Shown here: positions 1,374 through 60,277 of the stretch, piece after piece
How positions within the stretch are numbered: position 1 is the stretch's first letter
Layout: every line of letters begins with the position of its first letter
Assembly (NCBI RefSeq): GCF_009746125.1
Contig: NZ_CP041352.1
Span: 3,332,436 to 3,396,435 of the forward strand
Direction: 5' to 3'
DNA: 64,000 nt
Origin: Casimicrobium huifangae
Lineage (GTDB): Bacteria; Pseudomonadota; Gammaproteobacteria; Burkholderiales; Casimicrobiaceae
The notes under the pieces: generated by a model
Databases searched by the model: none
What the model was told of the DNA's origin: nothing
What the model saw: the letters and a program-made list of their open reading frames with translations, nothing else
Position numbers and translations under genes: made by a program

Positions 1374-1588
1374 AGATCCTCCTTTTTTCACTCCGGATGC
1401 GCCGATCTGGCGGCCGAGCGTTGCATTGTGCCCGCCGCACCGGGCGCGTCAAGCGCCACGACAAGAACGAGCAGGCCGGCCGCAACTCCCACGATCGACC
1501 ATACGCCGGAGCAGCCTGTCAGCGGTGGCTGGTGTCCCGTTCAAGTAAGCTCCGTGAGGACCAGCATCTGTTCTGCCCAGGAGCCCTC

Positions 1589-2447: not shown

Positions 2448-2544
2448 CGACAGTCTGCGGTCTGCTGCTCACGCCTCTGATGCGGCGCAACAAAGCGATG
2501 CGGCGGCTGGCTACACTGGCAGGTTGACTCTTCAGCAAACCACC

Positions 2545-8924: not shown

Positions 8925-8956
8925 GTGGAGTAATCCGGCGCCAGAAGATGAACCGA

Positions 8957-8999
8957 TGACTGCACGGCATCCCCGGCGCAAGCGGAGGCTGTGCAGTCA
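8957..8999 (-). promoter_or_regulatory. Nine-bp hairpin in the Mn exporter leader (candidate expression platform)
   Basis: On the minus strand TGACTGCAC (8999-8991) and GTGCAGTCA (8965-8957) pair perfectly around a 25-base loop. The first four bases of the 5' arm, TGAC, are also the 3' side of the short closing stem of the riboswitch aptamer. The two structures are therefore mutually exclusive. No T-run follows, so it is not an ordinary intrinsic terminator. It could act through translation or Rho. Confidence 0.6.
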
Positions 9000-9130
9000 A
9001 AGGTCTTGCCAGACGCAGGGCCAGGCCCCGCTGCCGCACGCGCCATGACCGGATGGTCAAGTGTGTTGACGCGTGCCCCGCTCGTTGCGCCACGCTGGTG
9101 GCGCTGGTGGGCGGCTACTCCCCGATGACC
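8996..9130 (-). promoter_or_regulatory. yybP-ykoY manganese riboswitch
   Basis: Read on the minus strand, the conserved blocks of the yybP-ykoY family appear in order. CGGGGAGTAGCC is at about 9124-9113, GCGTCAACACACTTG follows in the middle, and GGCAAGACCTTTGAC (9010-8996) closes the aptamer. A short outer stem can form between GTCA near 9129 and TGAC at 8999-8996. This aptamer binds Mn2+ and switches on Mn exporters of the MntP and TMEM165/UPF0016 types, and it lies directly upstream of such an exporter here. The match was made by eye. Confidence 0.85.
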
Positions 9131-9182
9131 AATGCATTTTACGCCGAACCGAAAGCGCATCAGCCCGGCGCGGCTGCATTGC

Positions 9183-9949: not shown

Positions 9950-10070
9950 AGCAACTTTTCTCCATAAAGGCCGTTGCAAAAGGGCCAAAGACGATAAATC
10001 GCCATTGTTGACTTTTAATCGATTCCTGCACTGAGCCCTTTTCCAGTGGTCGTTTCACGAAAAAGCTGAT
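9950..10070. repeat. TCGA-centred palindromic element, copy 2
   Basis: The centre is TTGA at 10008-10011, one base off the TCGA of the other copies. The right arm 10034-10070 runs AGCCCTTTTCC to GAAAAAGCTGAT. The left arm, read on the opposite strand from 9986 to 9950, starts GGCCCTTTTGC. Spacers are 21 and 20 bases. It lies in the divergent gap between the Tat protein gene and the hexaheme cytochrome, ending about 100 bases before the latter. Confidence 0.8.
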
Positions 10071-10172: not shown

Positions 10173-12809
10173 ATGATTGAAGTGAACGCAACACGCTGGC
10201 AACGCACATCACGGCCCCTGCGGCGATACGCGGCGGCAGTGCTGGCAAGCTGCGCCGGACTGGCGCTGGCGCAGCAACTGGCGCCTCCACCGATCCCCGC
10301 TCCCGCCAGCGCGCCGCACAATGTGATCCCCGCCGTCTGCCTGCAACCGCTGTCGGCGACCAACCTGCAAGGCGTCGCCAACTTCATCTGGTCGGCGTGC
10401 CCGCAATTGCTCAACTGGCCGCACGACAGCACACCGCGGATGACCGGGCCATCGCCCAGCGGCAAGGGCTCGGTGCACGGTTTTGTGCTCAATTACTACG
10501 CACCCTCTGTGTATGCCTGGCTCAAGGCCGGCAGGCCGGACGGCGGCATTCCGAGTGGCGCGCTGATCATCAAGCAGATGTACAACGACAACAACGGCCA
10601 GCCGGGCGCGGTGAATGGCTGGACCATCATCGTCAAGAAGAAGGACGCCTCCTATGACGGCTGGTTCTGGGGCTACGTTGATCCGCAGAAGCAGAACGGC
10701 GGCGACGGGCTTTACGGCGGCCAGTTCTACGACCCGAACTGCGTGGGTTGCCATGCGTCTGCCAGCACGCGCGAGTTGACCTTCTCTTCGCTGGTCAACA
10801 TCACCGGCAACTTTGGTGGCACCGCAATGCCGCAACGCAATGGCCTTTCCGGCGGTTCGTTGCATGCGCGGGTGATGACGCTCGCCAGCGCCACCGATGC
10901 CGCCAAAGCAACAGCCACATCGGGGGGCGCAAGCAGCCTCGTTCCCGGCGCGCCGCCGGTGATCCCCACCGACATCCCGCCGCAAAGCGCGAGCAAGGTG
11001 ATCGTCGGCGCCGCCGGGCCCACCGGCTTCGTCAGCTCCGACGTTTGCTCCGGTTGCCACGACGCCAGTAATCTCGCGTTCGGCATTCAGGCCAACATGA
11101 CCTGGCCGCAGAACCTGCCGCCGTCGAAGTTCCCGACCACGCCGCTGCGCAACTTTTCACCCTTCGGCGAATGGGGCGCGTCGATGATGGGGCTCGCCGG
11201 CCGCGACCCGGTCTTTCAGGCGCAGCGCGAATCGGAAACGCTGACCTATCCCTCGGTCGCGAAAGAAATCGACAACACCTGCTACACCTGCCACGGCGTC
11301 ATGGGCAAGCGGCAACTGCTGACCGACAAGCCGGACGCCCTCTTCACCCACGCCGACTTCATCGCCACCACTGGCCCCAACGCCACTTACGGCGCCCTCG
11401 GCCGCGACGGCATCTCCTGCCTCGCCTGCCACCGCATGACGCCCGAAGGTCTGGGTACCGAGGCGAGCTTCACCGGCAACTTCAAGGTGACGGACCCGAA
11501 GACGGTGTACGGTCCGTATCAGGACGTGGTGACCTTTCCGATGAAAAATTCGATCGGCATGACGCCCACACACGGCGCGGCGATCACCGATCCGGCGATG
11601 TGCGGCTCCTGCCACGTCGTTGAAACGGAGATCCTCGACAAGACCAAAACCTACACCCGCGAGAGTTTCTACAAGCAACCGAAATCGCACGAGCAGACCA
11701 CCTACCTCGAATGGCTGAACAGCCGCTACCAGACCAAGACGCCACCGGGGCCTGGCGCCACGCCGCAGACCTGCCAGCAGTGCCACATGCCGCGCACGAT
11801 GGATGGACAGCAGATCACCACCAGGATCGCCAACATCCAGGACAACACCTACACCGATGCACAGGGCCAGCCGTTCCCGAACACTGCGCCGGCCGCCGAC
11901 ATCACGATGAAGCCGCGCAACGAGTTTGGCCGCCACACCTTCGTCGGGGCCAACGTCTTTGTGCTGGAAATGTTCAAGCAGTTCGCGCCGCAGCTCGGTC
12001 TCACTGTCAATGATCCCAACTACGACACCAGCACCTTCAAGTTTGTGCCGGTACTTGATCTGTCGATTCAGGAAACGACGAAGCAGGTGCAAAACGCGAC
12101 TGCGAGCGTCGCCATCGTCGCCCAGCGACGCAGCGCCAGCGGCCTCGACGTGGACGTGCAGGTGGTCAACAAGACCGGTCACAAGTTTCCGTCGGGTGTC
12201 GGCTTCCGTCGTGCCTTCATCGAGTTCACTGCGATGGATGCCACTGGCAAGGTGGTCTGGTCGTCCGGACGCAGCACCGACAAGGGCGTACTGATCAACG
12301 ATCAGGGACAGACGCTCGCCACCGAGTTCAGCAAGACGCAATGGCAGCCGCACTGGCGCATCATCACCGGCAGCAATCAGGTGCAAACGTATGAGGTTCG
12401 CACCAAGGACCTGCAGGGCCTGCTCACCACCAGCTTCCTTGGCCTCGCAAAGTCGGTGAAGGACAACCGGCTGATGCCCGTCGGCTGGTCGCCAAACGGC
12501 GCCTACGCAAGCTGGACTGCCCCGATAGCAGTGCCCGCCACCGGCAGCCCCGGCTACTACAACGGCAGCGGCAGCGACCTGATCACCTATCGCATGCCAC
12601 CCGCCGTCGCCGCACAGGTGAAGACGGTGCGGGTAACGCTCAACTATCAGTCGATCCCGCCGTACTACCTGCAGGATCGCTTCACCATCGGTGGCAACAA
12701 CCCGTCTACTGCGACGCTGCGCGCGCTGGTGCAATACGTCGACTACTCGAACACGGCGGCAAAGGGATGGAAGCTGCCGGTGGCGAGCGCGGCGGTTGCC
12801 ATCCGCTAA
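10173..12809 (+). CDS. Hexaheme c-type cytochrome, exported
   Basis: An 878-residue protein with a signal peptide (positive start, hydrophobic core to about residue 35, ending ALAQQ) and AGGGGA before the ATG. Six CXXCH haem sites are visible: CVGCH at 190, CSGCH at 292, CYTCH at 370, CLACH at 416, CGSCH at 477 and CQQCH at 534. The last 250 residues have no haem site and carry a beta-rich NKTGHKFPSG-type segment that recurs at the end of large multihaem cytochromes. It probably carries or delivers electrons in the periplasm; its enzyme activity, if any, is unknown. A LigE-type ligase gene follows after 9 bases. Confidence 0.87.
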   Translation: MIEVNATRWQRTSRPLRRYAAAVLASCAGLALAQQLAPPPIPAPASAPHNVIPAVCLQPLSATNLQGVANFIWSACPQLLNWPHDSTPRMTGPSPSGKGSVHGFVLNYYAPSVYAWLKAGRPDGGIPSGALIIKQMYNDNNGQPGAVNGWTIIVKKKDASYDGWFWGYVDPQKQNGGDGLYGGQFYDPNCVGCHASASTRELTFSSLVNITGNFGGTAMPQRNGLSGGSLHARVMTLASATDAAKATATSGGASSLVPGAPPVIPTDIPPQSASKVIVGAAGPTGFVSSDVCSGCHDASNLAFGIQANMTWPQNLPPSKFPTTPLRNFSPFGEWGASMMGLAGRDPVFQAQRESETLTYPSVAKEIDNTCYTCHGVMGKRQLLTDKPDALFTHADFIATTGPNATYGALGRDGISCLACHRMTPEGLGTEASFTGNFKVTDPKTVYGPYQDVVTFPMKNSIGMTPTHGAAITDPAMCGSCHVVETEILDKTKTYTRESFYKQPKSHEQTTYLEWLNSRYQTKTPPGPGATPQTCQQCHMPRTMDGQQITTRIANIQDNTYTDAQGQPFPNTAPAADITMKPRNEFGRHTFVGANVFVLEMFKQFAPQLGLTVNDPNYDTSTFKFVPVLDLSIQETTKQVQNATASVAIVAQRRSASGLDVDVQVVNKTGHKFPSGVGFRRAFIEFTAMDATGKVVWSSGRSTDKGVLINDQGQTLATEFSKTQWQPHWRIITGSNQVQTYEVRTKDLQGLLTTSFLGLAKSVKDNRLMPVGWSPNGAYASWTAPIAVPATGSPGYYNGSGSDLITYRMPPAVAAQVKTVRVTLNYQSIPPYYLQDRFTIGGNNPSTATLRALVQYVDYSNTAAKGWKLPVASAAVAIR

Positions 12810-23224: not shown

Positions 23225-23346
23225 TTCAACATTTCTGCAAAAACGCCATTCAGTCAGGGCTTTGGCGATGATTTGCTTGAAAGTCGACTTTGCGAACAAT
23301 ATTGCGTCAAGCCCTTATTCAATGGCACTTATTTCGAAAAGCTGAT
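23225..23346. repeat. TCGA-centred palindromic element, copy 3
   Basis: Centre GTCGAC, with TCGA at 23284-23287. The right arm 23310-23346 reads AGCCCTTATTCAATGG to GAAAAGCTGAT. The left arm on the other strand (23261-23225) starts AGCCCTGACTGAATGG. Both spacers are 21 bases. It lies in the divergent gap between the TetR operon and iorA, about 130 bases before iorA and next to the candidate TetR operator. Confidence 0.82.
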
Positions 23347-30939: not shown

Positions 30940-33369
30940 CTAGCGCGCGTACAGCGCGGGCTGAAAGCCAACGAAGGCTTGGCGAACGGCGGTCACATCG
31001 CCAAGGGTGGCAAGCCCGTCACTGATCGCATCACCGAAGCGCAAACGCAGCAAGGGGACGAGTTGCCCGAGATCAAGTTCGTCTACCCCTTGTGTCTCGT
31101 ACTGATCGAGCACGAAATTGATGAAGGCCTGCTGCTTCTCGCCGAAGTCGCGCGCAACTGCCGCCCGTGCAAATTCAGCGCGCTCGGCACGCGTCTTGGG
31201 TTCTGCGGCGAACGCAATGTAAGAGAGCACATCAAACAGATCACTCTTTTCAGCGCCGATCACGCGCTGCATCTCGGCGAGTTGCTCGCGGCTAAAACCT
31301 TTTTCTGCCAGCCCATCAAGCAATTGGCGGCGGGTTTCGGGGGCGCTCCAGAGCGCGCGCAACTCATCCTCGTTGGCGAAGAATTCCGGCAGGCGACCGA
31401 ACAGCATTTCCATAAACTGCTGTGCCGACATCGGCGTGCCGTCGGCGTGCCAGAAGCTCGTGGCCATCATGTGCTGGATGTTGCGTGCCTTGCCATCAGC
31501 CAGTTTCACCCGCACCGTGCGGCGTGCCTGCGCAGCGGCATCACCAGCCTCCTCCGCCGCGCCACCTTCCGCCTCCGCTGGCCACTCAGGTTGCGGCTCT
31601 CGCACTTGATGAACCGCCGGTGGTTCTGGTGCCAGCGGCTCGCCGTCCCATTCCGGATCGTTGAAATGATGATGCGCCCGCACAAAGTCGTAGATCGTGA
31701 AGTACGCTTTGCCGTCAAACAGCCGCGTGCCGCGTCCGATGATCTGCTTAAACTCGATCATGGTGTTCACTGGTCGCATCAGCACGATGTTGCGGACGTT
31801 GCGGGCATCCACGCCCGTTGAGAGTTTTTGCGAGGTGGTCAGGATCGTCGGGATGGATTTTTCGTTGTCCTGAAAATCGCGCAAATGCTGTTCGCCGAGC
31901 GCGCCGTCGTTGGCCGTCACGCGAACGCAGTAATTCGGCTCCTTGCTGGCCTTGATCTGGTTAATCAGGTCGCGCACCACCAGCGCGTGCAGTTGCGTGG
32001 CGCAAAAGACCAGTGTTTTTTCTCGCTGGTCAATCTGCTCCATGAAGACTTTCACGCGATGCGCCTCGCGCTCCCTGATCTCGATAATGCGGTTGAAATC
32101 CTTCTCTTCGTAGCGTTTACCTGCTTCAATTTCACCCTCGATCAGCGTGTCGTCCGGCGTGTACACATAGTCGTCCAGCGTCGTTGCAATCTGCTTCACG
32201 CGAAATGGCGTGAGGAAGCCATCGTTGATGCCGTCCTTCAGCGAATACGTGTAAACCGGTTCACCGAAATATGCGTAGGTATCAACGTTGTCATCCCGCT
32301 TCGGCGTCGCCGTCAATCCGAGCTGCACAGCAGGCGAGAAGTAGTCGAGGATGCCGCGCCAGCTACTCTCGTCGTTGGCACCGCCACGATGACATTCGTC
32401 GATCACGATAAAGTCGAAGAAGTCCGGCGGGTACTCGCCGAAGTACGGCGAGCCAACGGCGGCGTCATTGGGCGTCTGAATCGCTGCGGTCACGTCATTC
32501 CCGCGCAGGCGGGAATCCAGACCGTCTGCGCTGGACTCCCGCCTGCGCGGGAGTGACGATTCCTGACCGCTCATGAATGTCTGAAAAATCGTGAAGAAGA
32601 TGCTCCCGTTCTTCGGCACCTGCCCCTTCTTGCGGATATCGTCGGGCGCGATGCGCACCAGCGCATCGTCGGCAAACGCTGAAAACGCGTTGTACGCCTG
32701 ATCGGCCAGGATGTTGCGGTCGGCGAGGAAGAGGATGCGTGGCCGGCGAGCGGGTTCGCGCGTCAGGTTCCAGCGGCTTTGAAACAGCTTCCACGCAATC
32801 TGGAACGCGATGAAGGTCTTGCCGGTACCGGTCGCGAGCGTCAGCAATATGCGTCGCTGCCCGTCCGCGATGGCCTGCAGCACACGCTCCACCGCGATGT
32901 CCTGGTAGTAGCGCCCCTGAAAGTAGCCGCCGCGATCCTCGAACGGCACCGCCGCAAAGCGATCGCGCCATGCGTCCGCTTCGGCAAAGGTCAGGTTCCA
33001 CAGCTCGTCAGGCGTCGGGAAGGCGGCGCGCTCACCCTCCTGCCCCGTGTCCATGTCGATGCCGTAAACGCCCTGCCCGTTGGTCGAGTAGGTGAAGCGC
33101 ACCGAGAGCTTGGCGGCGTAGTGCTTAGCTTGCCCCACGCCCTCCGTCAGTGGCTGATCCCACGCCTTCGCCTCCACCACCGCAAGCTTGGTGTTGCGGT
33201 AGATCAGCACGTAGTCCGCCGTCAGCGCCTTGCCGCGCCGCAGTGGCCCCTCGATGCGCCCCGGTGCAATTGCGTATTCACGCCGGATGCGGCTGCCTTC
33301 CACCACGCCCCAACCCGCTGCCGCAAGCTGCGGGTCAATGTGTTCGGCGCGAGTTTCGGCTTCGTTCAT
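30940..33369 (-). CDS. hsdR: Type I restriction enzyme R subunit (HsdR, DEAD-box)
   Basis: An 809-residue HsdR. The N-terminal nuclease domain shows ADYVLIYRNTKLAVVEAKAW, giving the D...E-A-K active site. The SF2 motor has LATGTGKTFIAFQ (Walker A), VIDECHRGG (motif II), LTATPKRDD (motif III) and IGRGTRLFDGK (motif VI). Residues about 271-292 (around SLPRRRESSADG, then DSRLRGND) come from a palindromic repeat pair inserted in frame just before the DECH box. The frame stays open, so the enzyme may be functional with an extra loop. It starts 3 bases after the fic stop and follows hsdM/hsdS on the same strand. Confidence 0.9.
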   Translation of the reverse strand: MNEAETRAEHIDPQLAAAGWGVVEGSRIRREYAIAPGRIEGPLRRGKALTADYVLIYRNTKLAVVEAKAWDQPLTEGVGQAKHYAAKLSVRFTYSTNGQGVYGIDMDTGQEGERAAFPTPDELWNLTFAEADAWRDRFAAVPFEDRGGYFQGRYYQDIAVERVLQAIADGQRRILLTLATGTGKTFIAFQIAWKLFQSRWNLTREPARRPRILFLADRNILADQAYNAFSAFADDALVRIAPDDIRKKGQVPKNGSIFFTIFQTFMSGQESSLPRRRESSADGLDSRLRGNDVTAAIQTPNDAAVGSPYFGEYPPDFFDFIVIDECHRGGANDESSWRGILDYFSPAVQLGLTATPKRDDNVDTYAYFGEPVYTYSLKDGINDGFLTPFRVKQIATTLDDYVYTPDDTLIEGEIEAGKRYEEKDFNRIIEIREREAHRVKVFMEQIDQREKTLVFCATQLHALVVRDLINQIKASKEPNYCVRVTANDGALGEQHLRDFQDNEKSIPTILTTSQKLSTGVDARNVRNIVLMRPVNTMIEFKQIIGRGTRLFDGKAYFTIYDFVRAHHHFNDPEWDGEPLAPEPPAVHQVREPQPEWPAEAEGGAAEEAGDAAAQARRTVRVKLADGKARNIQHMMATSFWHADGTPMSAQQFMEMLFGRLPEFFANEDELRALWSAPETRRQLLDGLAEKGFSREQLAEMQRVIGAEKSDLFDVLSYIAFAAEPKTRAERAEFARAAVARDFGEKQQAFINFVLDQYETQGVDELDLGQLVPLLRLRFGDAISDGLATLGDVTAVRQAFVGFQPALYAR
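32493..32558. repeat. Inverted pair of ATTCCC-N8-GGGAAT repeats inside hsdR
   Basis: A 28-base unit with core ATTCCCGCGCAGGCGGGAAT at 32493-32520 is followed after 10 bases by its inverted near-copy at 32531-32558 (core ACTCCCGCCTGCGCGGGAGT). The whole insert is 66 bases, a multiple of three, and is translated within HsdR. The ATTCCC-N8-GGGAAT layout is like the dRS3 repeats of Neisseria. Other copies are at 36029-36135 and, degenerate, at 34751-34776. Confidence 0.88.
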
Positions 33370-33372
33370 TCG

Positions 33373-34380
33373 CTACACATTCTTGAGCACATAGTGCCCA
33401 GTCTTCGCGCCGCCGACTTTTTCCACCAGGCCCGCCTCAATCAATGGTCGCAACAGGTCCATTGCACCCTGCCGGGACACGCTCAGCGCCGACCAGATTT
33501 CGTTCGGCGCCATGCTGCCGTGGTCACGCAGCAGGTGCAGCAGTTGCTCCTGTCGCGGGCGCAGCGCGAGCTTTCGCGTGGCATTGCCCTGAATCGTCTG
33601 GATGCGTAGCCACGCCCGCTCCAGCGTCGTGCGCAGTCCGGCGGCGCAATATTCCAGCCAGCCGCTCAGGTCATCGCCCGCGTGGCGCACGGCGTCCAGC
33701 TCGGCGTAGTACCGCGGCCGGTCTTCCCAATAAAACTCGTCGACCGAAAAAATGTGATGCGTATCAAATCCGCGCCGATACAGCTCCCACAGCGAAAGCG
33801 CGCGGCCCGTGCGGCCATTGCCATCTGCGAACGGATGGATTGACTCAAAACGATGATGCAGGATCGCCGAGCTCAGCACCGGCGAGAGCTTCGTCGCCGC
33901 CGTGTTCCACCACTCCAGCAGCTCGAACATCAGGCCCGACACAGCGTCCGCAGGCGGAGGCAAATAGTCCCCCACGCGCACACCCATCGTCCGGTATCGG
34001 CCCGCCTCGCCCTGATCCATCACCTCACCGGCCAGAATGCGGTGCAGCTCCAGCACATCGTCGTGACGAATCGTCTCGACAGCGGCATTTTTTTCGACAT
34101 AGCGCAGCCCGGCGAAATAATTGATCACCTCACGTTTCGGGCGCTCGCCGGAGCGCGACAGCGTGCGCCCTTCCTCAAGCGCGCGCACCTGCTCCAGCGT
34201 CAGCGGATTGCCTTCGATGGCGGTGGAGGCGTGCACGTTGCGGGTACGGGTGTCCTTCTGCAACGCAGGAATCCATGCCAGATCAACTGCGGCGCTCTGA
34301 ATGCGCTCCCGCAGCGCCGCGACCCGCTCCACCTCATTGAGCAGAGTCGCGCTGATGGTGAAACGGGGAACGTAGGCCAT
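33373..34380 (-). CDS. Fic family protein (class II, self-inhibited)
   Basis: A 335-residue Fic protein from ATG 34380. HPFADGNGRTGR at 182-193 is the complete AMPylation motif (catalytic His182). STAIEGN at 52-58 is the N-terminal inhibitory helix of class II Fic proteins, whose glutamate blocks ATP placement. The C-terminal 80 residues form a winged-helix-like segment (LRDHGSMAPNEIWSALSVSRQGAMDLLRPLIEAGLVEKVG). It should transfer AMP to a target protein's hydroxyl group. It lies between hsdS and hsdR, 3 bases before hsdR, so the two are co-transcribed. Confidence 0.9.
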   Translation of the reverse strand: MAYVPRFTISATLLNEVERVAALRERIQSAAVDLAWIPALQKDTRTRNVHASTAIEGNPLTLEQVRALEEGRTLSRSGERPKREVINYFAGLRYVEKNAAVETIRHDDVLELHRILAGEVMDQGEAGRYRTMGVRVGDYLPPPADAVSGLMFELLEWWNTAATKLSPVLSSAILHHRFESIHPFADGNGRTGRALSLWELYRRGFDTHHIFSVDEFYWEDRPRYYAELDAVRHAGDDLSGWLEYCAAGLRTTLERAWLRIQTIQGNATRKLALRPRQEQLLHLLRDHGSMAPNEIWSALSVSRQGAMDLLRPLIEAGLVEKVGGAKTGHYVLKNV

Positions 34381-34399
34381 GCGCAAAGGCTAGCCAAAC

Positions 34400-34610
34400 G
34401 TCAAGTATGAGTCAAGTTATTTGTCAAGTCACTGACACTATGTCGCAGGCGGCGACACGCCAAACACGTCAAACAAATATGTCGGCGTTTTTGCGTTTTT
34501 CCGACATGTTTCGGACTCATGTCGTTCGTGACGACATATCGGCGCAATGTGTCGCCAAAACGCTGGATTGACGACATATCGCTGGCGGCGGATGTTACCG
34601 CCAGTAACAT
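34400..34610. promoter_or_regulatory. Operator-like repeat cluster upstream of fic-hsdR
   Basis: Three direct GTCAAGT copies at 34400, 34411 and 34423 (spacing 11 and 12, one helical turn) lie just upstream of fic. Beyond them, TGTCG/CGACA occurs at least seven times in both orientations between 34441 and 34575. These include the repeated ACGACATATCG at 34531 and 34571 and the pair ATGTCG/CGACAT flanking TTCGTGA. ATGTTAC-CGCCA-GTAACAT at 34592-34610 is a further inverted repeat. No ORF fits the region, so it looks like a regulatory region for fic-hsdR. Confidence 0.55.
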
Positions 34611-34621
34611 GGATTTGACGC

Positions 34622-34743
34622 ATCAGCTTTTTTATCAAACCCTTATTCAATAAGGGCTCAGCGCTTTATTTCGGCAATTATCGACTATTGGCAAAATTAG
34701 CTGCCAAGCCCTTATCCATAGGCACTTTTACGAAAAAGCCATA
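34622..34743. repeat. TCGA-centred palindromic element, copy 4
   Basis: Centre TCGA at 34681-34684. The right arm 34707-34743 reads AGCCCTTATCCATAGG to CGAAAAAGCC. The left arm on the opposite strand (34658-34622) reads AGCCCTTATTGAATAAGG to AAAAAAGCTGAT. Both spacers are 21 bases. This is the clearest copy, as both arms keep AGCCCTTAT and AAAAAGC. It lies between the hsdS stop and the operator-like cluster before fic. Confidence 0.85.
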
Positions 34744-34750
34744 TAGTCAT

Positions 34751-34776
34751 CGTCATCCCGCGAACGGAGGAATGCG
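34751..34776. repeat. Degenerate copy of the ATTCCC-N8-GGGAAT repeat
   Basis: CGTCATCCCGCGAACG followed by GAGGAATGCG matches one unit of the repeat seen at 32493 and 36029, with one base lost and two changed. It lies just downstream of hsdS and abuts palindromic element copy 4. Confidence 0.55.
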
Positions 34777-34794
34777 AGTGTCGGCAAAGGCGCG

Positions 34795-36012
34795 TCACAG
34801 CGCCCCGCTGAACGCCTGATGCAGCAGCGACTTCTTCAATTCGTCCAGCGCGGCGAGTTTTTGCTGGTAGAGGGATTCGAGGCGTTGGGTTTCTTCGCCA
34901 AGTTCGTGGAGAGCCCCAGCAATTGCTTCCTGCTTCTTCAAAGGCGGAAACGAAAAAGAAATATTTCTCAAGTCACGAATATTGATCTGCATTAGCGCGG
35001 TACCGTAGGTTTTTTCGCGTATCTGTTCCTGAACGACAGCAGAATTCATCAGGTAAAAACCGAAGTCACGGGTCATGCGTGCCGGATCGAACCGAATCGG
35101 AACGATGCCTCGCGTTACGTTTCCGCCCACAAGTTCGGGCGCGGCCATCGAGAGCATGCCTGTGCTACCACGCACGCAGAGCAAGAGTTCGCCACCAACC
35201 AAAGTTGTTCGCTTGTAAGAATCAGCCAGTTTGGGATCAATGCGCTTAAGACCGTCAAGGTAAATAACCTTCGACGTCATATCTGTGGGTCGGACAATCG
35301 CCAAACCGTCTGCGACCTCCTCTCCCGGTTGCACGATGCCGTACGAAAGCGTGCATTCGCGGTGCGCGACACCCTCCAGCGTTGTTTCCGTCCATCCGTC
35401 ACCCCGCTGCGTGAAAACGGCTTGAAGGTGGCTTTCGAACAGGGCGCGGGCGTTTTGGAGGTTCTTTTCGGCGTTGGCTTTGGCGGTGGCGATGCCGTCA
35501 AACGCTTCGTCGAGGATGCCGGCGATTCGCTGCTGTTCGGTGAGTGGTGGTACCGGAATCGGATACGCATCAATGAACTCCTTCGCAACGCGCTTGTGAC
35601 CAACCGCACCACTCATGCGCGCTGCGCCCTCGGTGCGAAAGGTTTCGCGTGAGAGATAGTAGTAAAGCCATTCTTTGTCTAACGCCGGGCTTGGCCGTAA
35701 GACCATGTATTCGCTGGAGCCAAATCCAACGCCGTTGGTCAGATTGGCCGCAATCCCGAGTTTGCCGTTCTCAAAGCACGGCGTGATCTTCGCAAGCAAC
35801 ACATCGCCGTCGGCGAAATACGTATAGCTGCCAGCCACGTCCGCCAGCAGTCTCGTTTGTGTGGGCACGACCTGCTTCTGATCAATGCCCAAGTCTTCCA
35901 TCGGAACAAATGAAACTGAATCATTCGAAGCCAGACGCTGGCGTGCCTCCGATTTCGGCGGCTTGATCTCACAGACTTCAGACAGCGTTTTCGTTGGCCA
36001 AGCAGAACTCAC
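34795..36012 (-). CDS. hsdS: Type I restriction enzyme specificity subunit
   Basis: A 405-residue HsdS with two target-recognition domains. Each is followed by a long conserved helix: PPLTEQQRIAGILDEAFDGIATAKANAEKNLQNAR at about 155-190 and PPLKKQEAIAGALHELGEETQRLESLYQQKL at the C-terminus. The first domain opens WPTKTLSEVCEIKPPKS. It sets the two halves of the DNA target sequence for the HsdMSR complex. Its ATG overlaps the stop of the GIY-YIG gene as ATGA. The target sequence cannot be read from the protein. Confidence 0.9.
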   Translation of the reverse strand: MSSAWPTKTLSEVCEIKPPKSEARQRLASNDSVSFVPMEDLGIDQKQVVPTQTRLLADVAGSYTYFADGDVLLAKITPCFENGKLGIAANLTNGVGFGSSEYMVLRPSPALDKEWLYYYLSRETFRTEGAARMSGAVGHKRVAKEFIDAYPIPVPPLTEQQRIAGILDEAFDGIATAKANAEKNLQNARALFESHLQAVFTQRGDGWTETTLEGVAHRECTLSYGIVQPGEEVADGLAIVRPTDMTSKVIYLDGLKRIDPKLADSYKRTTLVGGELLLCVRGSTGMLSMAAPELVGGNVTRGIVPIRFDPARMTRDFGFYLMNSAVVQEQIREKTYGTALMQINIRDLRNISFSFPPLKKQEAIAGALHELGEETQRLESLYQQKLAALDELKKSLLHQAFSGAL

Positions 36013-36518
36013 GCCCCACCTCCAACCCCGTCATTCCCGCGCAGGCGGGAATCCAGTTCGTAATCCTCCGCGCAGCGCATTTCAGACGCTTCGCGTGGGG
36101 TGGGGGGCTGGATTCCCGCGTTCGCGGGAATGACGAGAGGAACGGGAGGGGTGGGCACGGCGGGAGGGACGGGAACGGCGACAGGGGCAGGAATAGCGGC
36201 AACGGTGGCAATAGTGCTTAAGGGCCACTCACCGATGATTTCTGGCCACAGGTCATTCCACTGTGGGTTCATCTTTTCGATGATGTCGAGCTTCCACTTC
36301 CGCAGCCACTTCTTCATGGCCTTTTCGCGCGAAATGGCGCTTTCCATCGTTTCGTGTTGTTCGTACCAGACGAGTAATTTGACGTCGTGGTCTTTGGTGA
36401 AACCCTCAGCAATGCCCTCGCGATGCTGCCATACGCGTTTGACCAGATCAGACGTGACGCCGATGTAGAGCGTGCCGTTGCGGCCACTCGCCATGATGTA
36501 GACCGACGGAGACTTCAC
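36009..36518 (-). CDS. GIY-YIG nuclease-like protein wedged between hsdM and hsdS
   Basis: A 169-residue protein. Residues 1-95 are a complete small GIY-YIG domain of the UPF0213/YhbQ size: VYIM at 6-9, LYIGVT at 17-22, KRVWQHRE with the conserved Arg, and SREKAMKKW with the conserved Glu near 65. Residues 98-127 are proline/alanine/valine-rich. Residues 128-164 (VIPANAGIQ to DSRLRGND) are the translation of a palindromic repeat pair (36029-36135). It overlaps hsdM and hsdS by 4 bases each, so it is translated as part of the operon. Its substrate is unknown. Confidence 0.83.
   Translation of the reverse strand: MKSPSVYIMASGRNGTLYIGVTSDLVKRVWQHREGIAEGFTKDHDVKLLVWYEQHETMESAISREKAMKKWLRKWKLDIIEKMNPQWNDLWPEIIGEWPLSTIATVAAIPAPVAVPVPPAVPTPPVPLVIPANAGIQPPTPREASEMRCAEDYELDSRLRGNDGVGGGA
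36029..36135. repeat. Inverted pair of ATTCCC-N8-GGGAAT repeats forming the end of the GIY-YIG gene
   Basis: Unit one (36029-36056, core ATTCCCGCGCAGGCGGGAAT) matches the first unit in hsdR base for base. The inverted unit lies at 36108-36135 with core ATTCCCGCGTTCGCGGGAAT. The 51 bases between include AGCGCATTTCAGACGCTTCG. The pair is translated within the GIY-YIG reading frame and ends 17 bases before the hsdS start region. Confidence 0.88.
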
Positions 36519-37966
36519 AACAACGCCCGGATCCCGGCGAGCACTTCGGCGCTCTCCGCATCCAGCGCCGCAATCTCGTCCATGATGTCCTGCGGGCGGC
36601 GATGGGTGACGGTTTCAACGGCGCTCGGGTTTTTGACCGCGAGGTCGAACGTGGTGGCGTCAATATTCCCCGCGTCCACGCTCCAGCTTTTGCCCGAATC
36701 AGCGAACGTCTTTTGCAGCGTGATGAATTCGGTGAGATCGGCGTCGTTGAGCGGGTTGGTCTTGCCCATGTTGCGGCCGGGATCGAGCTGGTAGTACCAA
36801 ACCTTTCGGGTCGGTGCGCCCTTCTCGAAAAACAGCACCACCGTCTTCACGCCGGCGCCGAGGAAGGTGCCGCCGGGGCAATCGAGCACGGTGTGCAGGT
36901 TGCAGCTTTCGAGCAATTGTTTGCGCAGGCTAACCGAGGCGTTGTCGGTGTTCGAGAGAAACGTGTTCTTGATGACGATGGCGGCGCGGCCACCGGCGCG
37001 CAACAGTTTGATGAAGTGCTGCAGGAACAGAAACGCGGTTTCGCCGGTGCGGATCGGGAAGTTTTGCTGCACTTCCTTGCGTTCCTTGCCACCGAACGGC
37101 GGGTTGGCGAGCACGATGTCGAAGCGGTCCTTCTCCTGGACGTCGGCGAGGTTTTCCGCGAGCGTGTTGGTGTGCTGGATGTTCGGCGCTTCGATGCCGT
37201 GCAGGATCATGTTCATGATCGCGATGACGTAGGCGAGAGATTTTTTCTCCTTGCCGTAGAAGGTGCGCTCCTGCAGGGTTTTCAGGTCGGCCGCTTTGGT
37301 CGCGAGCGGGCGCAGGTAGTCGAACGCCTCGCACAAAAAGCCCGCCGAGCCGCAGGCGCCGTCGTAAATCGTCTCACCAATCTTCGGCGCGGTGACCTGC
37401 ACCATCGCGCGGATCAGCGGACGCGGCGTGTAGTACTCGCCGCCGTTGCGGCCCGCGTTGCCCATGTTCTTGATTTTGGCTTCGTACAGGTGCGAAAGCT
37501 CGTGCTTTTCAGTCTGTGAGCGAAAGCGCAGCGCGTCGATCTGGTCGATGATCTCGCGCAGGTTGTAGCCGCTGGAAATCTTGTTCTTGATCTCGCCAAA
37601 AATTTCGCCGATCTTGTATTCCAGCGTGTTCGGGCCGCTGGCCTTCTGCTTGAAGCCTTGCAGGTAAGGGAACAGCGTGCGGTCAACAAACTCGCGCAGG
37701 TCGTCGCCGGTGAGCGCCTTGTTGTGGTCAAGCTTGCCGCTGGCATCCTTCGGCGCGGCCCAGGTGTCCCAGCGATAGGGCGAGGCGATGATGTGGGTGT
37801 ACTTCTTGCCTTCAAGCTCGGCCTCGGTCGCCTTGTCCTGCTCCAGGCCGTCGAGATACTTGAGGAAGAGCAGCCAGGAGGTTTGCTCGGTGTAGTCCAG
37901 CTCCGTAGTACAGCCCGCCTCTTTCCAGAGAACGTCGTCGATATTTTTGAAGGCTTGTTCGAACAT
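36515..37966 (-). CDS. hsdM: Type I restriction-modification methylase subunit
   Basis: About 483 residues from ATG 37966 (an in-frame TTG two codons upstream is less likely). The N-terminal HsdM helical domain (FEQAFKNIDDVLWKEAG) is followed by GGEYYTPRPLIRAMV, SAM motif I YDGACGSAGF near residue 205, and the catalytic motif IV ANPPFGG near 287. It methylates adenine within the target set by HsdS. It is the first gene of the locus and overlaps the GIY-YIG gene by 4 bases. No strong ribosome site is visible. Confidence 0.92.
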   Translation of the reverse strand: MFEQAFKNIDDVLWKEAGCTTELDYTEQTSWLLFLKYLDGLEQDKATEAELEGKKYTHIIASPYRWDTWAAPKDASGKLDHNKALTGDDLREFVDRTLFPYLQGFKQKASGPNTLEYKIGEIFGEIKNKISSGYNLREIIDQIDALRFRSQTEKHELSHLYEAKIKNMGNAGRNGGEYYTPRPLIRAMVQVTAPKIGETIYDGACGSAGFLCEAFDYLRPLATKAADLKTLQERTFYGKEKKSLAYVIAIMNMILHGIEAPNIQHTNTLAENLADVQEKDRFDIVLANPPFGGKERKEVQQNFPIRTGETAFLFLQHFIKLLRAGGRAAIVIKNTFLSNTDNASVSLRKQLLESCNLHTVLDCPGGTFLGAGVKTVVLFFEKGAPTRKVWYYQLDPGRNMGKTNPLNDADLTEFITLQKTFADSGKSWSVDAGNIDATTFDLAVKNPSAVETVTHRRPQDIMDEIAALDAESAEVLAGIRALL

Positions 37967-38287
37967 GGGCAAGATCAGCGTGAGTTGATTGCATTATGTC
38001 TGGCGTGCAGATCGCTGCACTTTCCACCGCCTTTCCGCAAAATTGCGCCTCTCAACAGGCACTTGACGGTTCCGCCGGGCGATTGACCCATGAACGGCTT
38101 TGTGAAGCTCGACGCGAGCGAAAAAGTGAGGTTCACCGCGAATAGGTAGCGGCAGCAGCCGTACAAGCTGATCTGCTACCGCTTTCGCGTTTTGCGAAAC
38201 CTCGTTTGCCAGGAAACGTATTCCGTTGTCGTGCCATTCTCCGTAGACTGCGCACCATCGCACTGGCACATTCCAAGGAGGCTTCTG
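37967..38287. other. Divergent intergenic region between hsdM and the Bug-type gene
   Basis: These 321 bases hold the promoters of the two divergent units. TTTCGC-GTTTT-GCGAAA at 38183-38199 is a 6+5+6 inverted repeat about 90 bases upstream of the Bug-type start. GGTAGC at 38146 pairs with GCTACC at 38175. These could be operators or small hairpins. AAGGAGG precedes 38288. No gene was seen. Confidence 0.5.
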
Positions 38288-49874: not shown

Positions 49875-50426
49875 AGGTAGACGGGCTTAGGCAGCACGCA
49901 ATATCTGTCTGCGCGCTCGCAACCGATTCAATTCTAGTTTGCCGGTCTCGTCACAGCTAGGGTAACTTCTATGTGGCGCAAATCGCTTTGGCACCGAGAT
50001 CTTTGGCGCTAGTGCGTGTGGCTATTGAGTTGCGGCGATTGAGCCATTTTTAGTACCTGACGTGGACTATCGTTTCTTGCGCAGGTGTCCGCCTTCCCGC
50101 AACGTGTAACGCGATTTATGGCTGCGTCCAAATGCCGTCGTTTTGTCTGGCTTCGAGACCAATGCGCCGAGACTTTGTGGCGCTCTTTGTGGCGCAAAAC
50201 TGCGGCACAAAATGCTAACCACTGATGCTTGCAGCTTGCATCTTGCTGCAAGCTGCGTGCTGCTAGCTGCAGTGGATGCACAAAGTAGGCATTGTTTCGA
50301 ACAGCAATCACTGCATTGACTACATGCCGGTTTTGTATGGGGCTATATCAATAGAATAAGCATGCGCGCAAAAAGCGGCTCAATCGACTGAAAACGCTCG
50401 TTTCTCCTGCAGCAAGCTGCAAGAAG
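49875..50426. repeat. Intergenic region with TGCAGC-rich repeats left of the IS
   Basis: About 550 bases with no gene seen. From 50227 to 50272 the words GCTTGCAGC, GCATCTTGC, TGCAAGCTGC and AGCTGCAG follow one another, and CTGCAGCAAGCTGC recurs at 50408-50421. The same words continue right of the IS at 51881-51947, so the IS sits within a repeat-rich region. They could be iteron-like sites for the nearby replication protein, but no fixed spacing was found. Confidence 0.55.
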
Positions 50427-50508
50427 TGGCCCCACATTTCAAGACAGCAGGATAAGTGGAAACTCGGATAGCAAATGACGCGGCGGAAGCCGCGAGAAAG
50501 ACTATTCG

Positions 50509-50838
50509 ATGTCAACGAAGAAGAGCAGCGCAATTCGGCGCCAGCGGCGCAAGCTCACACCGGAATTCAAAGCCAGGGTTGCCCTGGCAGCGCTGCGGGA
50601 GGACGCAACGACAGCCGAGTTGGTGGCACGTTTTGACGTTCACGCCAACCAGATCAGCGAATGGAAGAAGCTATTGCTGGAGCGCGCCACACTCGCCTTT
50701 GGCGGGAGCACGACGCTGGCCGCTGGCGACGACGAAGCGCTCGTCAAGGCCCAGACCAAGATTGGGCAACAAGCCTTGGAGATTGATTTTTTAGAACGCG
50801 CGCTCACCAAGGTCGGATTGCTGAGCGCCGGGAAATGA
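50509..50838 (+). CDS. IS3-family transposase OrfA
   Basis: A 109-residue OrfA. The basic HTH reads [51 protein letters not shown], followed by a leucine-zipper-like helix ([23 protein letters not shown]). It binds the IS ends and, fused to OrfB by a frameshift, forms the active transposase. Its stop overlaps the OrfB start. Confidence 0.92.
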
Positions 50839-51719
50839 TCGACCGGACGCACAAACTATCGCTGACGCGGCAGGCCACGCTGGTTGGCATCAGCCGCTCG
50901 GCGGTGTACTACCAGGCCGTGGCGGTCTCCGAGCGCGATCTGGCGCTGATGCGGCGCATCGATGAGCTGCATCTGGAGCAGCCGTTCTGGGGCTCGCGGG
51001 GCCTCTTGCGCATGCTCAGGCGCGACGCATCGATCAAGCCCTGGATCGAGCAACAACCCTTGGGGCGCAAGCACGTCGCCACCCTCATGCGGCGCATGGG
51101 GATTGAGGCGCAGTGTCCAAAGCCCGGCACCAGCAAGCGAGGGCGTGGCCCCCGGCACAAGGTGTTCCCCTACCTGCTCGGCAGCATCAACTTCGAACAG
51201 ATGGACGCCAACACGGTCTGGGCGCTCGACACCACCTACATCCCGATGCGTCACGGCTTCGCCTACCTCACCGCCGTGATCGACGTGGCCAGCCGCCGAG
51301 TGCTCGCGCACAAGCTCTGCACCACGCTGGAGGCGTATCACGCCGTCGAGATCGTCGAGCAGGCGATCCATCGCTTCGGTACGCCCGAGATCGTCAACAC
51401 CGATCAGGGCAGCCAGTTCACCGCGCTCAAATTCGTTGAGGCGATCACGACGCGCAACATCAAGCTATCGATGGACGGTAGGGGGGCGTGGCGCGACAAC
51501 GTCTTCGTCGAACGCTTCTGGCGAACAATCAAATACGAGCGCATCTACAAGCGTGCCTACGATACGGTGAGCCAGGCACGCGCCGACGTGGCTGAGTACA
51601 TCGACTGGTACAACGAGCAGCGACCGCACACTTCCAACGAAATGGAGCAGACGCCGAAACAAGCCTACGACAATTCACGGGAGAAACTGGCGGCACGGAG
51701 CTTGAAGGCGGCTGCGTAG
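50835..51719 (+). CDS. IS3-family transposase OrfB (DDE)
   Basis: A 294-residue integrase-type OrfB. The catalytic triad is in place: Asp in [10 protein letters not shown], Asp in [10 protein letters not shown], and Glu in [15 protein letters not shown]. The upstream HTH_21-like region reads [13 protein letters not shown] and [22 protein letters not shown]. No stop or frameshift interrupts it, so the element may still be mobile. Confidence 0.93.
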
Positions 51720-51743: not shown

Positions 51744-51808
51744 CGTTACCCACGGCGCGCGCGAAACGTGCTCTATACGACGAGTTTTCGCGCGCGCCGT
51801 GGATAACG
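51744..51808. other. Long perfect-like stem-loop inside the IS
   Basis: CGTTACCCACGGCGCGCGCG at 51744 onward pairs with its inverted copy ending at 51808 (written CGCGCGCGCCGTGGATAACG), a stem of about 23 bp with one mismatch around a 19-base loop. It lies 25 bases after the orfB stop, between orfB and the right inverted repeat. It may block transcripts entering or leaving the IS. Confidence 0.8.
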
Positions 51809-51880
51809 CTACGCTCTCAACCCACCCTCCGAGTTCCACTTATCTTTCGGGGTTTGTTGTCTTGACGAATGGGGCCACTT

Positions 51881-51947
51881 CTGCATGCTGCAAGCTGCAT
51901 GCTTCTTGCAGCATGCATCGTGCATCTTGCAGCTTGCATCAAAATGC
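51881..51947. repeat. TGCAGC-rich repeats right of the IS
   Basis: CTGCATGCTGCAAGCTGCATGC is followed by CTTGCAGCATGC, then TGCATCTTGCAGCTTGCATC. The words are the same as on the left side of the IS (50227-50272, 50408-50421), which suggests that the IS entered an existing array or grew with it. Confidence 0.55.
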
Positions 51948-53978: not shown

Positions 53979-54123
53979 CAATCACGACGACTTCGCGCTG
54001 ACCGCCTGAACGGTGGTCTTGCCGCGTTCGTCGCGCTCGCCGCTTTCACGTCTTGCATGCTTTGCACGCATTGACGCGTCACGGCGCAGCGCACTGGCTT
54101 CACTGCTTGTTGTCTGGATTCAT

Positions 54124-55458
54124 ATGTTTCACCCCATTCTTCGTGGCGCGCGTAGCAGAGCTACCCTGCCTGCCGCGTGCGCACTACTTCTCTCGTTTGC
54201 CCTCTCATCGGGCATCGCCTTTGCCCAATCGGCACCACCCGGATCGCTTTCACTTGAGTCTGCACTGAAGATTGCGCAGGCACGCTCCTCGCTCCTAGTC
54301 GCACAGGACAGTGCAGCCACCGCATCGCGCGAAATGGCCGTCTCCGCAGGACAGTTGCCTGACCCGACGCTCAAACTTGGCATCAACAATCTGCCCGTAA
54401 CCAGCTCGGATCGGTTCAGTCTGTCGCGGGACTTTATGACCATGCGTTCGGTCGGTGTGATGCAGGAATTCACACGTAGCGACAAACGCGAAGCGCGATC
54501 AGTGCGCTTTGAAAGTGAAGCGCAGGTCGCGTATGCAACTCGAATCGTGACCATCGCCAACCTGCAACGAGAAACTGCCATGGCCTGGCTTGAGCGCTAT
54601 TACAGCGAACGCATGCGCGAAGTGCTGATCCAGCAACGCGACGAAGCGAAGCTACAAATTGAAGCAGCCGACACCACCTATCGCACCGGAAAGGGCGCTC
54701 AAGCGGATGTCTTTGCCGCTCGCTCCGCCGTCGCGCAAATCGAAGACCGCATCGCACAGGCCGACCGGCAGGTACTGGCTGCCAGCACCAAACTGGCACG
54801 CTGGATTGGCGAGGCCGCCACTCAGCCGCTGGATCGTCTGCCCTTGATGGACAGGCCCGGCGTGGAGTTGACGCAACTGGACACCGTGGTCGCGCATCAC
54901 CCGCAAATTGCGGTACTCAAACGGCAGGAAGATGTCGCGCAGGCCGATGTGGCCATCGCTCAAACCAACAAGCGCGCTGACTGGAGCGCCGAGCTGATGT
55001 TCAGCCAGCGCGGCTCCGCATTCTCCAACATGATTTCGATCAATCTGTCGGTGCCGCTGCAATGGGATCAGAAGCACCGGCAGGATCGCGAACTCGCCGC
55101 CAAATTGGCGCTGGTCGAGCAGGCCCGCGCGCAAACCGAAGAGATGACGCGGGAACACGCCGCAGACATTCGCGGCATGGTCATCGAATGGCAAAGCAAT
55201 CGTGAACGCCTGACGCGGCATGACAGCGCGCTGATCCCTCTCGCCAGCGAGCGCACTCGCGCGGCACTCGCTGCCTATCGCGGCGGCGCAGGCAGCTTGA
55301 CTATGGTGCTCGAAGCACGACGTGGCGAGATTGATGCGCGCATGGAGCGCCTGCGCCTGGCGATGGATACCGCGCGCTTGTGGGCGCAGCTCAACTACCT
55401 CAATCCTGAAGGACATGGCAACACCTCAACGTCTGCCACTGGTCGGAGCGCACCATGA
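54124..55458 (+). CDS. cusC: Outer-membrane TolC-family channel of the Cus efflux pump
   Basis: A 444-residue protein with a signal peptide ending GIAFAQ. The OEP fold follows: SLESALKIAQARSSLLV near the N-terminus, long helices (YYSERMREVLIQQRDEAKLQIEAADTTYRTGKGAQADVFAARSAVAQIED) and a second TolC repeat ending RLRLAMDTARLWAQLNYL. It forms the outer exit of the RND pump. Its stop overlaps cusB as ATGA. ATG 54124 is chosen because the upstream in-frame stretch lacks signal-peptide order. Confidence 0.88.
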   Translation: MFHPILRGARSRATLPAACALLLSFALSSGIAFAQSAPPGSLSLESALKIAQARSSLLVAQDSAATASREMAVSAGQLPDPTLKLGINNLPVTSSDRFSLSRDFMTMRSVGVMQEFTRSDKREARSVRFESEAQVAYATRIVTIANLQRETAMAWLERYYSERMREVLIQQRDEAKLQIEAADTTYRTGKGAQADVFAARSAVAQIEDRIAQADRQVLAASTKLARWIGEAATQPLDRLPLMDRPGVELTQLDTVVAHHPQIAVLKRQEDVAQADVAIAQTNKRADWSAELMFSQRGSAFSNMISINLSVPLQWDQKHRQDRELAAKLALVEQARAQTEEMTREHAADIRGMVIEWQSNRERLTRHDSALIPLASERTRAALAAYRGGAGSLTMVLEARRGEIDARMERLRLAMDTARLWAQLNYLNPEGHGNTSTSATGRSAP

Positions 55459-57107
55459 GCCTTAAAACGACCCTCTCAATCGTCGCCGTGATCGCGGTCG
55501 TCAGTGCCGCCAGCTACGGCCTGTATCAACTGGGCATGCACCGGGGTATGGGCATGACGGGTGGTACTTCCGAAACCGGTGCGAGCGGCGCGACCAACAC
55601 CGACAGCGGCCCGCAAAGCATCGCCCAGGGCGAAGCGGCTACCAAACGACACATCACGGCTGGCATCAAAGCCGGTGACGTCGATCCCGAAACTGGCAAA
55701 AAAATCCTTTACTACCACGACCCCATGGTGCCGGGAAACAAGTTCGACAAGCCCGCCAAGTCCCCCTTCATGGACATGATGCTGGTGCCGGTTTATACCG
55801 ATGGCGACACGGATCAGAGCAAAGTTACGGTCAGCTCGCGCATCCAGCAGAATCTCGGTGTGCGCACGGCTCCGGTGGTGCAGGGCATGCTCTCGCCGCA
55901 GGTGTCTGCCGTCGGCAGCATCGCCTATAACGAACGCGACCAAGTGATCGTACAGGCGCGTGCGACGGGCTACGTCGAGCGTCTCTATGTGCGTGCCACG
56001 CTGGATCGCGTTGCCAAAGGTCAGGCGCTGGCCGAACTCTATGTGCCCGACTGGATTGCGGCACAGGAGGAGTTTCTGTCCGTGCGTCGCATGCAGGGCA
56101 CCGATCTCGCCTCTCTTGTGGACGGCGCGCGCCAGCGCATGCGGCAGGTGGGTATGAGTGAGGCGCAGATTCGCCTTGTGGAGACGACCGGTATCACGCA
56201 ACCGCGTGTCATCTTGACTTCACCACAACATGGCGTCGTCGTCGAACTGCTCGCACGCGAAGGCATGACCGTGATGTCTGGTGCGACGCTGTTCCGCATC
56301 AATGGCTTGGGCACCGTTTGGGCCAATGCGGAAGTGCCGGAGACGCAGGCGGCGTTGCTGCGCCCCGGTGCGAAAGTGTCTGCCAGGAGCCCCGCAGTGC
56401 CGGGCACGACTTTCGAGGGCAAGGTGCAGGCGATCCTGCCCGAGGTGAACGCGGCCACCCGCACCATCAAGGCCCGACTCGAACTCGCCAACCCCGGCGC
56501 GCGCCTGGTGCCCGGCATGTTCGTCACCATGCAATTGACCGACAACCGCGCAGAAAAGTCGCTCCTGATTCCGACCGAAGCCGTGATCCAGACTGGGAAG
56601 CGCACCGTAGTGATGCTGGCTGAAGACAACGGCAAGTTCAGCCCCGTCGAGGTCGAAGCAGGCATCGAAAGCGACAACCAGACCGAGATCAAACGCGGCC
56701 TGAAACTCGGCCAGCGCGTCGTCGTGTCCTCGCAATTCCTGATTGATTCGGAAGCGAGCTTGAAGGGGGTTGAAGCGCGCCTCAACGACGCCCCCAAACC
56801 CATCGTAGCCAACACCGCCAAACGGCATCAGGGCGAAGCGAAAGTTGAAGCCATCACCCGCGATGCCATCACGCTGTCGCACGATCCGATCCCGTCGATC
56901 AAGTGGCCGTCGATGACCATGGATTTCAAGCCACCGGAGAAGGGGTTGCCGCGTAACGTTCAGGCGGGGGATCGCGTGAGCTTCGAGTTCTATGAGGCGG
57001 CCGAAGGAATTCCGCAAATCACGATCATCACACCGATGGCTCCAGAGGTTAAAGCCGCACCGTCCGTCCCCGCCGCCCCAGCGGCCAAAGCCGGAAAAAA
57101 GCCATGA
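55455..57107 (+). CDS. cusB: RND periplasmic adaptor CusB with HMBD and CusF-like domains
   Basis: A 550-residue adaptor. An N-terminal membrane anchor (residues 1-25) is followed by a heavy-metal-binding domain ([19 protein letters not shown] to MLVPVY, about 90-117). Then comes the adaptor core with its lipoyl/barrel segments ([25 protein letters not shown]-like [15 protein letters not shown]). A C-terminal domain ([28 protein letters not shown]) is CusF-like, with the Trp-x-x-Met-x-Met copper/silver site. It links CusA to the outer channel and can deliver metal. It overlaps both neighbours by 4 bases. Confidence 0.9.
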
Positions 57108-60100: not shown

Positions 60101-60277
60101 GGCACCGGCTCGGAGGTCATGCAACGCATCGCCGCACCGATGGTGGGCGGCATGATCACCGCGCCGCTGCTGTCAATGTTTGTGGTGCCTGCGGTTTATC
60201 TGTTGATGCGGAGGAGGCGTGAGCCTCCACGAACTAGCCTCGCGCCCGAAACCGTTCCCGCATCAGCATCGACATGA
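57104..60277 (+). CDS. cusA: Heavy-metal RND permease CusA
   Basis: A 1057-residue HME-RND permease with two sets of six helices. [45 protein letters not shown] (in helix 4, with the charged relay residues), [24 protein letters not shown] and [19 protein letters not shown] are CusA signatures. The wording is closer to CusA than to CzcA. It uses the proton gradient to pump Cu(I)/Ag(I) from the periplasm through the channel. It starts inside the end of cusB. Confidence 0.92.

Follow-up and report, generated by a model that had tools for sequence, protein, structure and literature searches.

A family of 122-bp palindromic chromosomal elements in one Burkholderiales genus, kept in place across species

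Bacterial chromosomes carry several kinds of small intergenic palindromes and organizing sites. Repetitive extragenic palindromes (REPs) and the BIMEs built from them are intergenic, reach high copy number and have a proposed role in chromosome topology; REPs are short hairpins usually tied to a RAYT (TnpA-REP) gene, and BIME-2 repeats of Escherichia coli are enriched for gyrase cleavage (PMC6379681). ERIC/IRU (127 bp) and other small MITE-like repeats such as Correia, RUP and YPAL are imperfect palindromes of about 100-170 bp that lie mostly between genes (PMC2229807). The E. coli gyrase motif spans about 130 bp, is symmetric about a 4-bp cleavage site and shows 10.75-bp G/C phasing in its flanks (PMC6379681), and gyrase has been found to bind a short palindrome (PMC12393610). 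parS, matS and similar sites are multi-copy chromosomal sites for an organizing protein; they are 13-16 bp long, few and regional. Here we describe a family of 122-bp dyad-symmetric elements that in the stretches examined recur about every 5 to 12 kb, and that we suggest are most likely sites of an unidentified architectural protein.

The elements in the window and in the host genome

The window analyzed is a 64,000-base stretch of Casimicrobium huifangae, positions 3,332,436-3,396,435 of a single 4,465,898-base contig (the host genome, G000). A sequence-only reading had described four copies of a palindromic element in it, with a central TYGA, spacers of 20-21 bases and 37-base arms. Direct reading and comparison of half against half confirmed that observation: all four copies carry a central TCGA (TTGA in one copy) at a dyad, spacers of about 20 bp and two outward arms of about 37 bp. 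The features are as follows.

2327-2447, no strand assigned: element copy 1, intergenic between genes at 1397-2290 (+) and 2524-3297 (+)
9950-10070, no strand assigned: element copy 2 (centre TTGA), intergenic, upstream of the gene called at 10239-12809 (+)
23225-23346, no strand assigned: element copy 3, intergenic; an element lies at the matching place in locus L165 (one flank aligned)
34622-34743, no strand assigned: element copy 4 (122-bp dyad), between a Fic-domain gene (33373-34386, -) and a type I restriction specificity gene (34795-36012, -)
34627-34630 (+): outer box CTTT of copy 4 (alignment columns 114-117, strand reversed)
34654-34657 (+): inner arm box GGGC of copy 4, 27 bp from the outer box and 27 bp from the centre
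34681-34684, no strand assigned: central TCGA (the dyad) of copy 4
34708-34711 (+): inner arm box GCCC of copy 4
34735-34738 (+): outer box AAAG of copy 4

The copies are far beyond chance, with profile E-values in a 464-kb stretch of 2.8e-22, 5.1e-21, 2e-20 and 4.8e-26 for copies 1 to 4, although the profile was built with these copies in it. Blastn with copy 4 alone gave 44 matches at E<=10. The 30 loci fetched, one of them copy 4 itself, each hold an element, only half of one in L022, which was left out of the alignment. A profile seeded on a manually entered consensus matched all 29 other loci, several only in part, and with the trained profile all but L022 match nearly full length. A sequence-only profile of 32 copies (R1) gave at least 150 strand matches in the host genome, all at E<=2.1e-15, with many places matching on both strands. 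Reversed-sequence controls gave 0 hits. Two contiguous host stretches of 464 kb and 400 kb hold 38 and 31 elements (69 in 864 kb), about one per 12.5 kb, from which we extrapolate some 350 per genome. The earlier count of four is thus an undercount. A plasmid search with copy 4 and its surroundings gave matches only outside the element (query 291-396, window 34790-34895).

Copy 4 lies inside a type I restriction locus (30940-37972; R, S and M genes) with a Fic-domain gene and a GIY-YIG gene in between, and genomes G001 and G015 of the genus have an element there too. REP-like inverted repeats CGTCATTCCCGCG...GGCGGGAATCCAG at 32490-32558 and 36029-36138 belong to a different repeat family. From 34744 the window holds no further element. 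This begins a 44-kb element-free gap that runs to about 79 kb in the host stretch and contains an integrase-core transposase gene (50835-51719) and a Cus-type metal efflux operon (54013-60277), possibly acquired DNA. The transposase gene is surrounded by 28-bp inverted repeats, 82% complementary, at 50422-50449 and 51855-51882, and 51805-51882 also matches locus L156 of assembly JAFEDD twice at 87%. Short direct repeats of TGCTGCAAGCTGC type lie near the same transposase at 50223-50271 and 51886-51913. The second host stretch has gaps of 36 and 31 kb.

Geometry, genus range and a second consensus

In 46 distinct host copies the information peaks are symmetric, with CTTT at columns 6-9, GGGC at 33-36, TCGA at 60-63, GCCC at 87-90 and AAAG at 114-117, a 27-bp period, plus AAA/TTT at 16-18 and 105-107. 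Columns 47-49 and their mirror are 95-99% A or T, with only mild preference between the two. Projected lengths are 122 (31 copies), 121 (13) and 120 (2), and in 120 loci of other genomes 125 of 135 elements project to exactly 122 bp. The claim that geometry is kept better than sequence was confirmed without a model. GGGC to GCCC at exactly 54 bp is the top distance in G000 (59 against a mean of 27.9) and in G006, another species of the genus (29 against 5.9). In G011, a third genus genome, 54 only ties with two other distances for the top (20 against 12.0), but with TYRA required at the centre it is the top there too (16 against 4.0), whereas 57 kb of genus member G002 showed no peak. A generic dyad test on whole sequence was swamped by local repeats. 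In intergenic DNA the top 5-mer dyads were GGGCT at 53 in both G000 stretches, CTTTT at 49 in G011, and TGGGC at 55 and GGGCG at 53 in G006, all distances of this element, and 200 kb of a sister genus (G017) had nothing comparable.

The arms do not co-vary, indicating a DNA dyad and not an RNA hairpin. RNAalifold on 32 copies found 0 consensus pairs. For the full dyad 59.9% of cells pair against 61.3% after shuffling partners, with 489 of 500 shuffles at least as high, and the small palindrome inside each arm shows no covariation either (58.2% against 57.6%, 148 of 500). Left and right halves of one copy are 51.4% alike and those of different copies 53.2%. Single copies do fold better than shuffles (mean z -2.7, 31 of 46 below -2), as expected of any palindromic consensus. 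Within the window, Rfam at gathering score matched only a manganese riboswitch (yybP-ykoY, RF00080) at 8929-9135 (-), upstream of the gene at 8346-8981 (-) and away from the elements, and no Rfam family matched the elements in four loci (L001, L025, L030 and L017) up to E=1.

R1 matched 16 of 17 genomes of the genus (G000-G016) and 0 of 43 other relatives. In an even draw of 399 genomes of the order, with stricter filters, it matched 5 of the 6 genus members listed and 0 of 393 others. A scan of the 20-base box code over a collection of 84,980 species gave at least 120 stretches, all from seven MAG assemblies labelled Burkholderiales, Betaproteobacteria or Proteobacteria, and further carriers are not excluded. 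One of these loci, L151, has no profile match. Assemblies JAPUER, JAFEDD, JANXNO, JANXNI and JANXUB correspond to G011, G013, G005, G015 and G001.

The host profile found almost nothing in 400 kb of G006, which at first suggested absence. The model-free distance count and a profile built for G006 showed this to be insensitivity, as the latter found 74 elements in the same 400 kb (L272-L291), with 0 hits in the reversed control. Elements are therefore about twice as dense in G006 as in the host, and G006 has a lower G+C content (55% against 62.5%). G006 writes GGGCGA and TATCGA where G000 writes GGGCT and GTCGAC, on the same 27-bp frame. A model built from the G006 profile (R2) matched 15 of 17 genus genomes and one order relative at E=0.0084, about what chance gives over 43 genomes at that limit. 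G016, in the same genus, is negative by both models, so the system is dispensable or has changed there; its first ten contigs are too short to use.

Conserved places, spacing and setting

Flanks of 100 host elements were projected on other species, giving 86 rows, 42 with and 44 without an element within 700 bp by the G000 profile. Rows include overlapping loci, many subject loci had been chosen for holding an element, and 29 of the 42 have both flanks aligned. Of the 44 misses 39 are G006 or G002, where that profile is insensitive, leaving 41 rows with and 5 without an element when these two genomes are excluded. With G006's own profile, 15 of 22 testable host places carry an element, against 14% for random positions, and seven have none. 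At 36 orthologous pairs (pairs without a full element on both sides and repeated pairs were dropped), identity is 82.8% at 40 constrained columns (81.5% for non-orthologous pairs) and 30.9% at 34 unconstrained columns (29.6%); 21 of the 36 pairs have equal length and all are within 2 bp. The free positions have thus been overwritten while boxes and spacing persist at the same place, indicating purifying selection on a 122-bp geometry. Empty sites in relatives and compensating changes had been set beforehand as expected support; no clean empty sites were seen, and compensating changes were not supported. Only three G000/G006 places had both flanks aligned, with length differences of 64, -79 and -21 bp, so that none was a clean 122-bp empty site, and at one G006 had a diverged element.

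Copies repel each other in the host and in G006, and only weakly in G011. Gaps between neighbours have a CV of 0.55 in each host stretch, against 0.95 and 0.91 for random intergenic placement (0 of 4000 and p=0.0005), with 0 and 1 gaps under 4 kb against 10.0 and 7.4 expected (1 against 17.4 in total). In G006 the CV is 0.60 against 0.91 (0 of 4000), with 5 gaps under 2 kb against 19.9. In G011 the evenness is weak (CV 0.74 against 0.91, p=0.14; gaps under 4 kb 2 against 6.3, p=0.011; with its own profile 30 elements and CV 0.71). The null uses intergenic gaps from our own gene calls.

Of 208 copies from several species, mostly in loci chosen for an element, 94 lie between tandem, 65 between convergent and 34 between divergent genes, 12 at locus edges and 3 in genes. 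The median distance to flanking gene 3' ends is 27 bp and to 5' ends 99 bp. In unbiased host stretches convergent gaps of at least 100 bp are favoured (18 of 45 against 48 of 269 others, Fisher p=0.0015), but not in G011 (3 of 12 against 23 of 96); in G006 the counts are 15 of 27 against 39 of 120. None of 96 element midpoints in the G000 and G011 stretches falls inside a called gene, whereas 12 of 74 do in G006; these, and the 3 of 208 above, may be gene-caller errors or false hits.

There is no sign of recent mobility. Mean pair identity of the 46 host copies is 54.5%, with a maximum of 68.0%. We found no consistent flanking duplication at k = 2-6, 8 and 9 and boundary offsets of -4 to +4 (best case 3 of 46 against 0.7 expected, at one of 63 settings), although old duplications could have decayed. 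Among 109 half-site hits in the 864 kb of host stretches, read also for a parent element with the same terminal repeats and a transposase, 0 were solitary, and viral contigs gave 0 exact code matches.

Possible roles and comparison with known systems

We propose, with a probability of roughly 0.6, that each element is a DNA site for a dyad-symmetric complex of a sequence-specific DNA-binding protein, or a small set of them. In this view subunits would contact boxes at about -54, -27, 0, +27 and +54 bp from the dyad, with A/T-only contacts at +/-13.5 bp, and would fold or bend the DNA into one particle. Such particles would mark the chromosome about every 5 kb (G006) to 12 kb (G000), between genes and often near gene 3' ends, so that promoters and reading frames are spared. 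Our analyses establish the family and its geometry, the lack of RNA covariation, purifying selection, the conserved places, over-even spacing in G000 and G006, the shifted consensus of G006 and, within the sample, the limitation to one genus. That a protein binds, that it is oligomeric and bends DNA, and that its role is architectural (an anchor or barrier for chromosome loops or supercoil domains) rather than local gene control are inferences. Because the consensus has shifted across a whole species while places stayed, a trans-acting protein that co-evolved with its sites is the simplest account. However, we identified no binding protein, and no architectural protein is known to have so long a base-specific site. 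Genes around three element clusters, inspected by eye as possible pointers to an autoregulated reader gene, were ordinary. The interpretation in the sequence-only reading is partly supported: many more copies with the same spacing exist and a reader molecule is the best explanation, but an RNA reader is not supported. No named element with this plan turned up in Rfam or in the literature searched, which mostly excludes subscription journals and preprints.

Of the alternatives, ancient non-autonomous transposable elements of MITE type and gyrase sites are both unlikely, but less so than the rest. Small palindromic intergenic repeats of 100-200 bp are a known kind (PMC2229807), the copies are many and limited to one clade, and repulsion could reflect target immunity during spread of elements now mostly immobile. 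However, the low copy identity, the lack of consistent duplications, of solitary arms in the 864 kb of host stretches and of exact code matches in viral contigs, and the persistence of conserved columns at places where free columns are saturated argue against this; neutral fossils would not show the last. Gyrase was the leading known candidate for a reader, as sequence-encoded loading sites for an enzyme that wraps about 130 bp around a 4-bp cleavage centre near gene ends would be a counterpart of BIME-2. Length, dyad, 4-bp centre, nearness to gene 3' ends and, in G000, the preference for convergent gaps fit. Over the whole element A/T content shows a period near 10, most clearly in G006 (peak 10.0 in G006; 9.75 is a second peak after 8.0 in G000), but this period appears only when the centre is included. 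Moreover, no gene exceeded the Gram-negative ParC cut-off in 17 of 17 genus genomes and in 6 of 7 other genomes of the family (G020 has one; G022 is incomplete), against 12 of 16 with one in other families of the order; topoisomerase IV may have been lost, leaving gyrase as the only type IIA topoisomerase, but this is shared with element-free relatives. Against gyrase, the flank period beyond about 17 bp from the centre is about 7.5 in G000 and G011, and power at 10.5 is below the null (2.7 and 1.9 against 6.4 and 6.5; G006 4.7 against 6.3). This analysis left out G000 and G011 copies not exactly 122 bp long and G006 copies with fewer than 7 of 8 letters of GGGC/GCCC (41 of 74 kept, so that the G006 inner boxes are high by construction). 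Estimated information of 54-91 bits (sets of 12-41 copies) is far above a degenerate motif. Gyrase is near-universal while the sites are limited to one genus in the sample, and GyrA looks ordinary in the part of the alignment inspected, in which a wrong long frame represents G011, G020, G023 and G036; element-free G016 has the same kind.

Operators of one very large regulon of a transcription factor appear very unlikely. The conserved consensus and places and the shifted consensus of G006 would fit, but 65 of 193 classified copies lie between convergent genes with no gene start on either side, and even spacing is not expected of operators. An RNA-level bidirectional terminator, mRNA stabilizer or attenuator is the least likely, despite the folding of single copies and their nearness to gene ends, given the absence of covariation, of consensus pairs and of Rfam matches at the elements in the window and in four loci, and the 34 of 193 copies in divergent gaps. 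A RAYT transposase as reader was also rejected. Y1_Tnp genes occur in 15 of 17 genus genomes but are absent from element-bearing G008 and from G016; in 11 regions around such genes the two profiles, insensitive in some species, placed no element nearer than about 1.3 kb to the gene; and 10 usable proteins, with the G011 frame wrongly picked, form at least three groups, different in different species.

We tentatively speculate, at less than even odds, that the genus has its own chromosome-wide ruler, in which hundreds of sites, spaced more evenly than chance and kept in place by selection, each fold into one nucleosome-sized particle with an unknown genus-specific protein and set the size of chromosome loops or supercoil domains. 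Protein and sites would have drifted together, so that related species read different spellings of the same geometry at the same places. How bacterial chromosomes are divided into such domains is unsettled, and no bacterium is known to us in which fixed, evenly spaced, sequence-defined sites do it. An array of conserved sites every 5-12 kb would make the question testable by removing or moving single sites. It also gives a clean natural case of many sites apparently co-evolving with a reader, with the bait sequence in hand to fish the reader out.

The elements share with REP/BIME an intergenic position, high copy number, palindromic form and a proposed role in chromosome topology, but form one 122-bp dyad of fixed geometry without hairpin covariation and without a consistent RAYT partner. 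They resemble ERIC/IRU and other MITE-like repeats in length, imperfect symmetry and mostly intergenic location, but lack consistent target duplications and near-identical copies and keep their places across species with selection on geometry. Like the E. coli gyrase motif they are symmetric about a 4-bp centre and of similar length, but that motif is degenerate with phased flanks, whereas here the boxes are base-specific and the flank phasing was not found. Compared with parS and matS, which are short, few and regional, the elements are 122 bp long and present in both long host stretches sampled.
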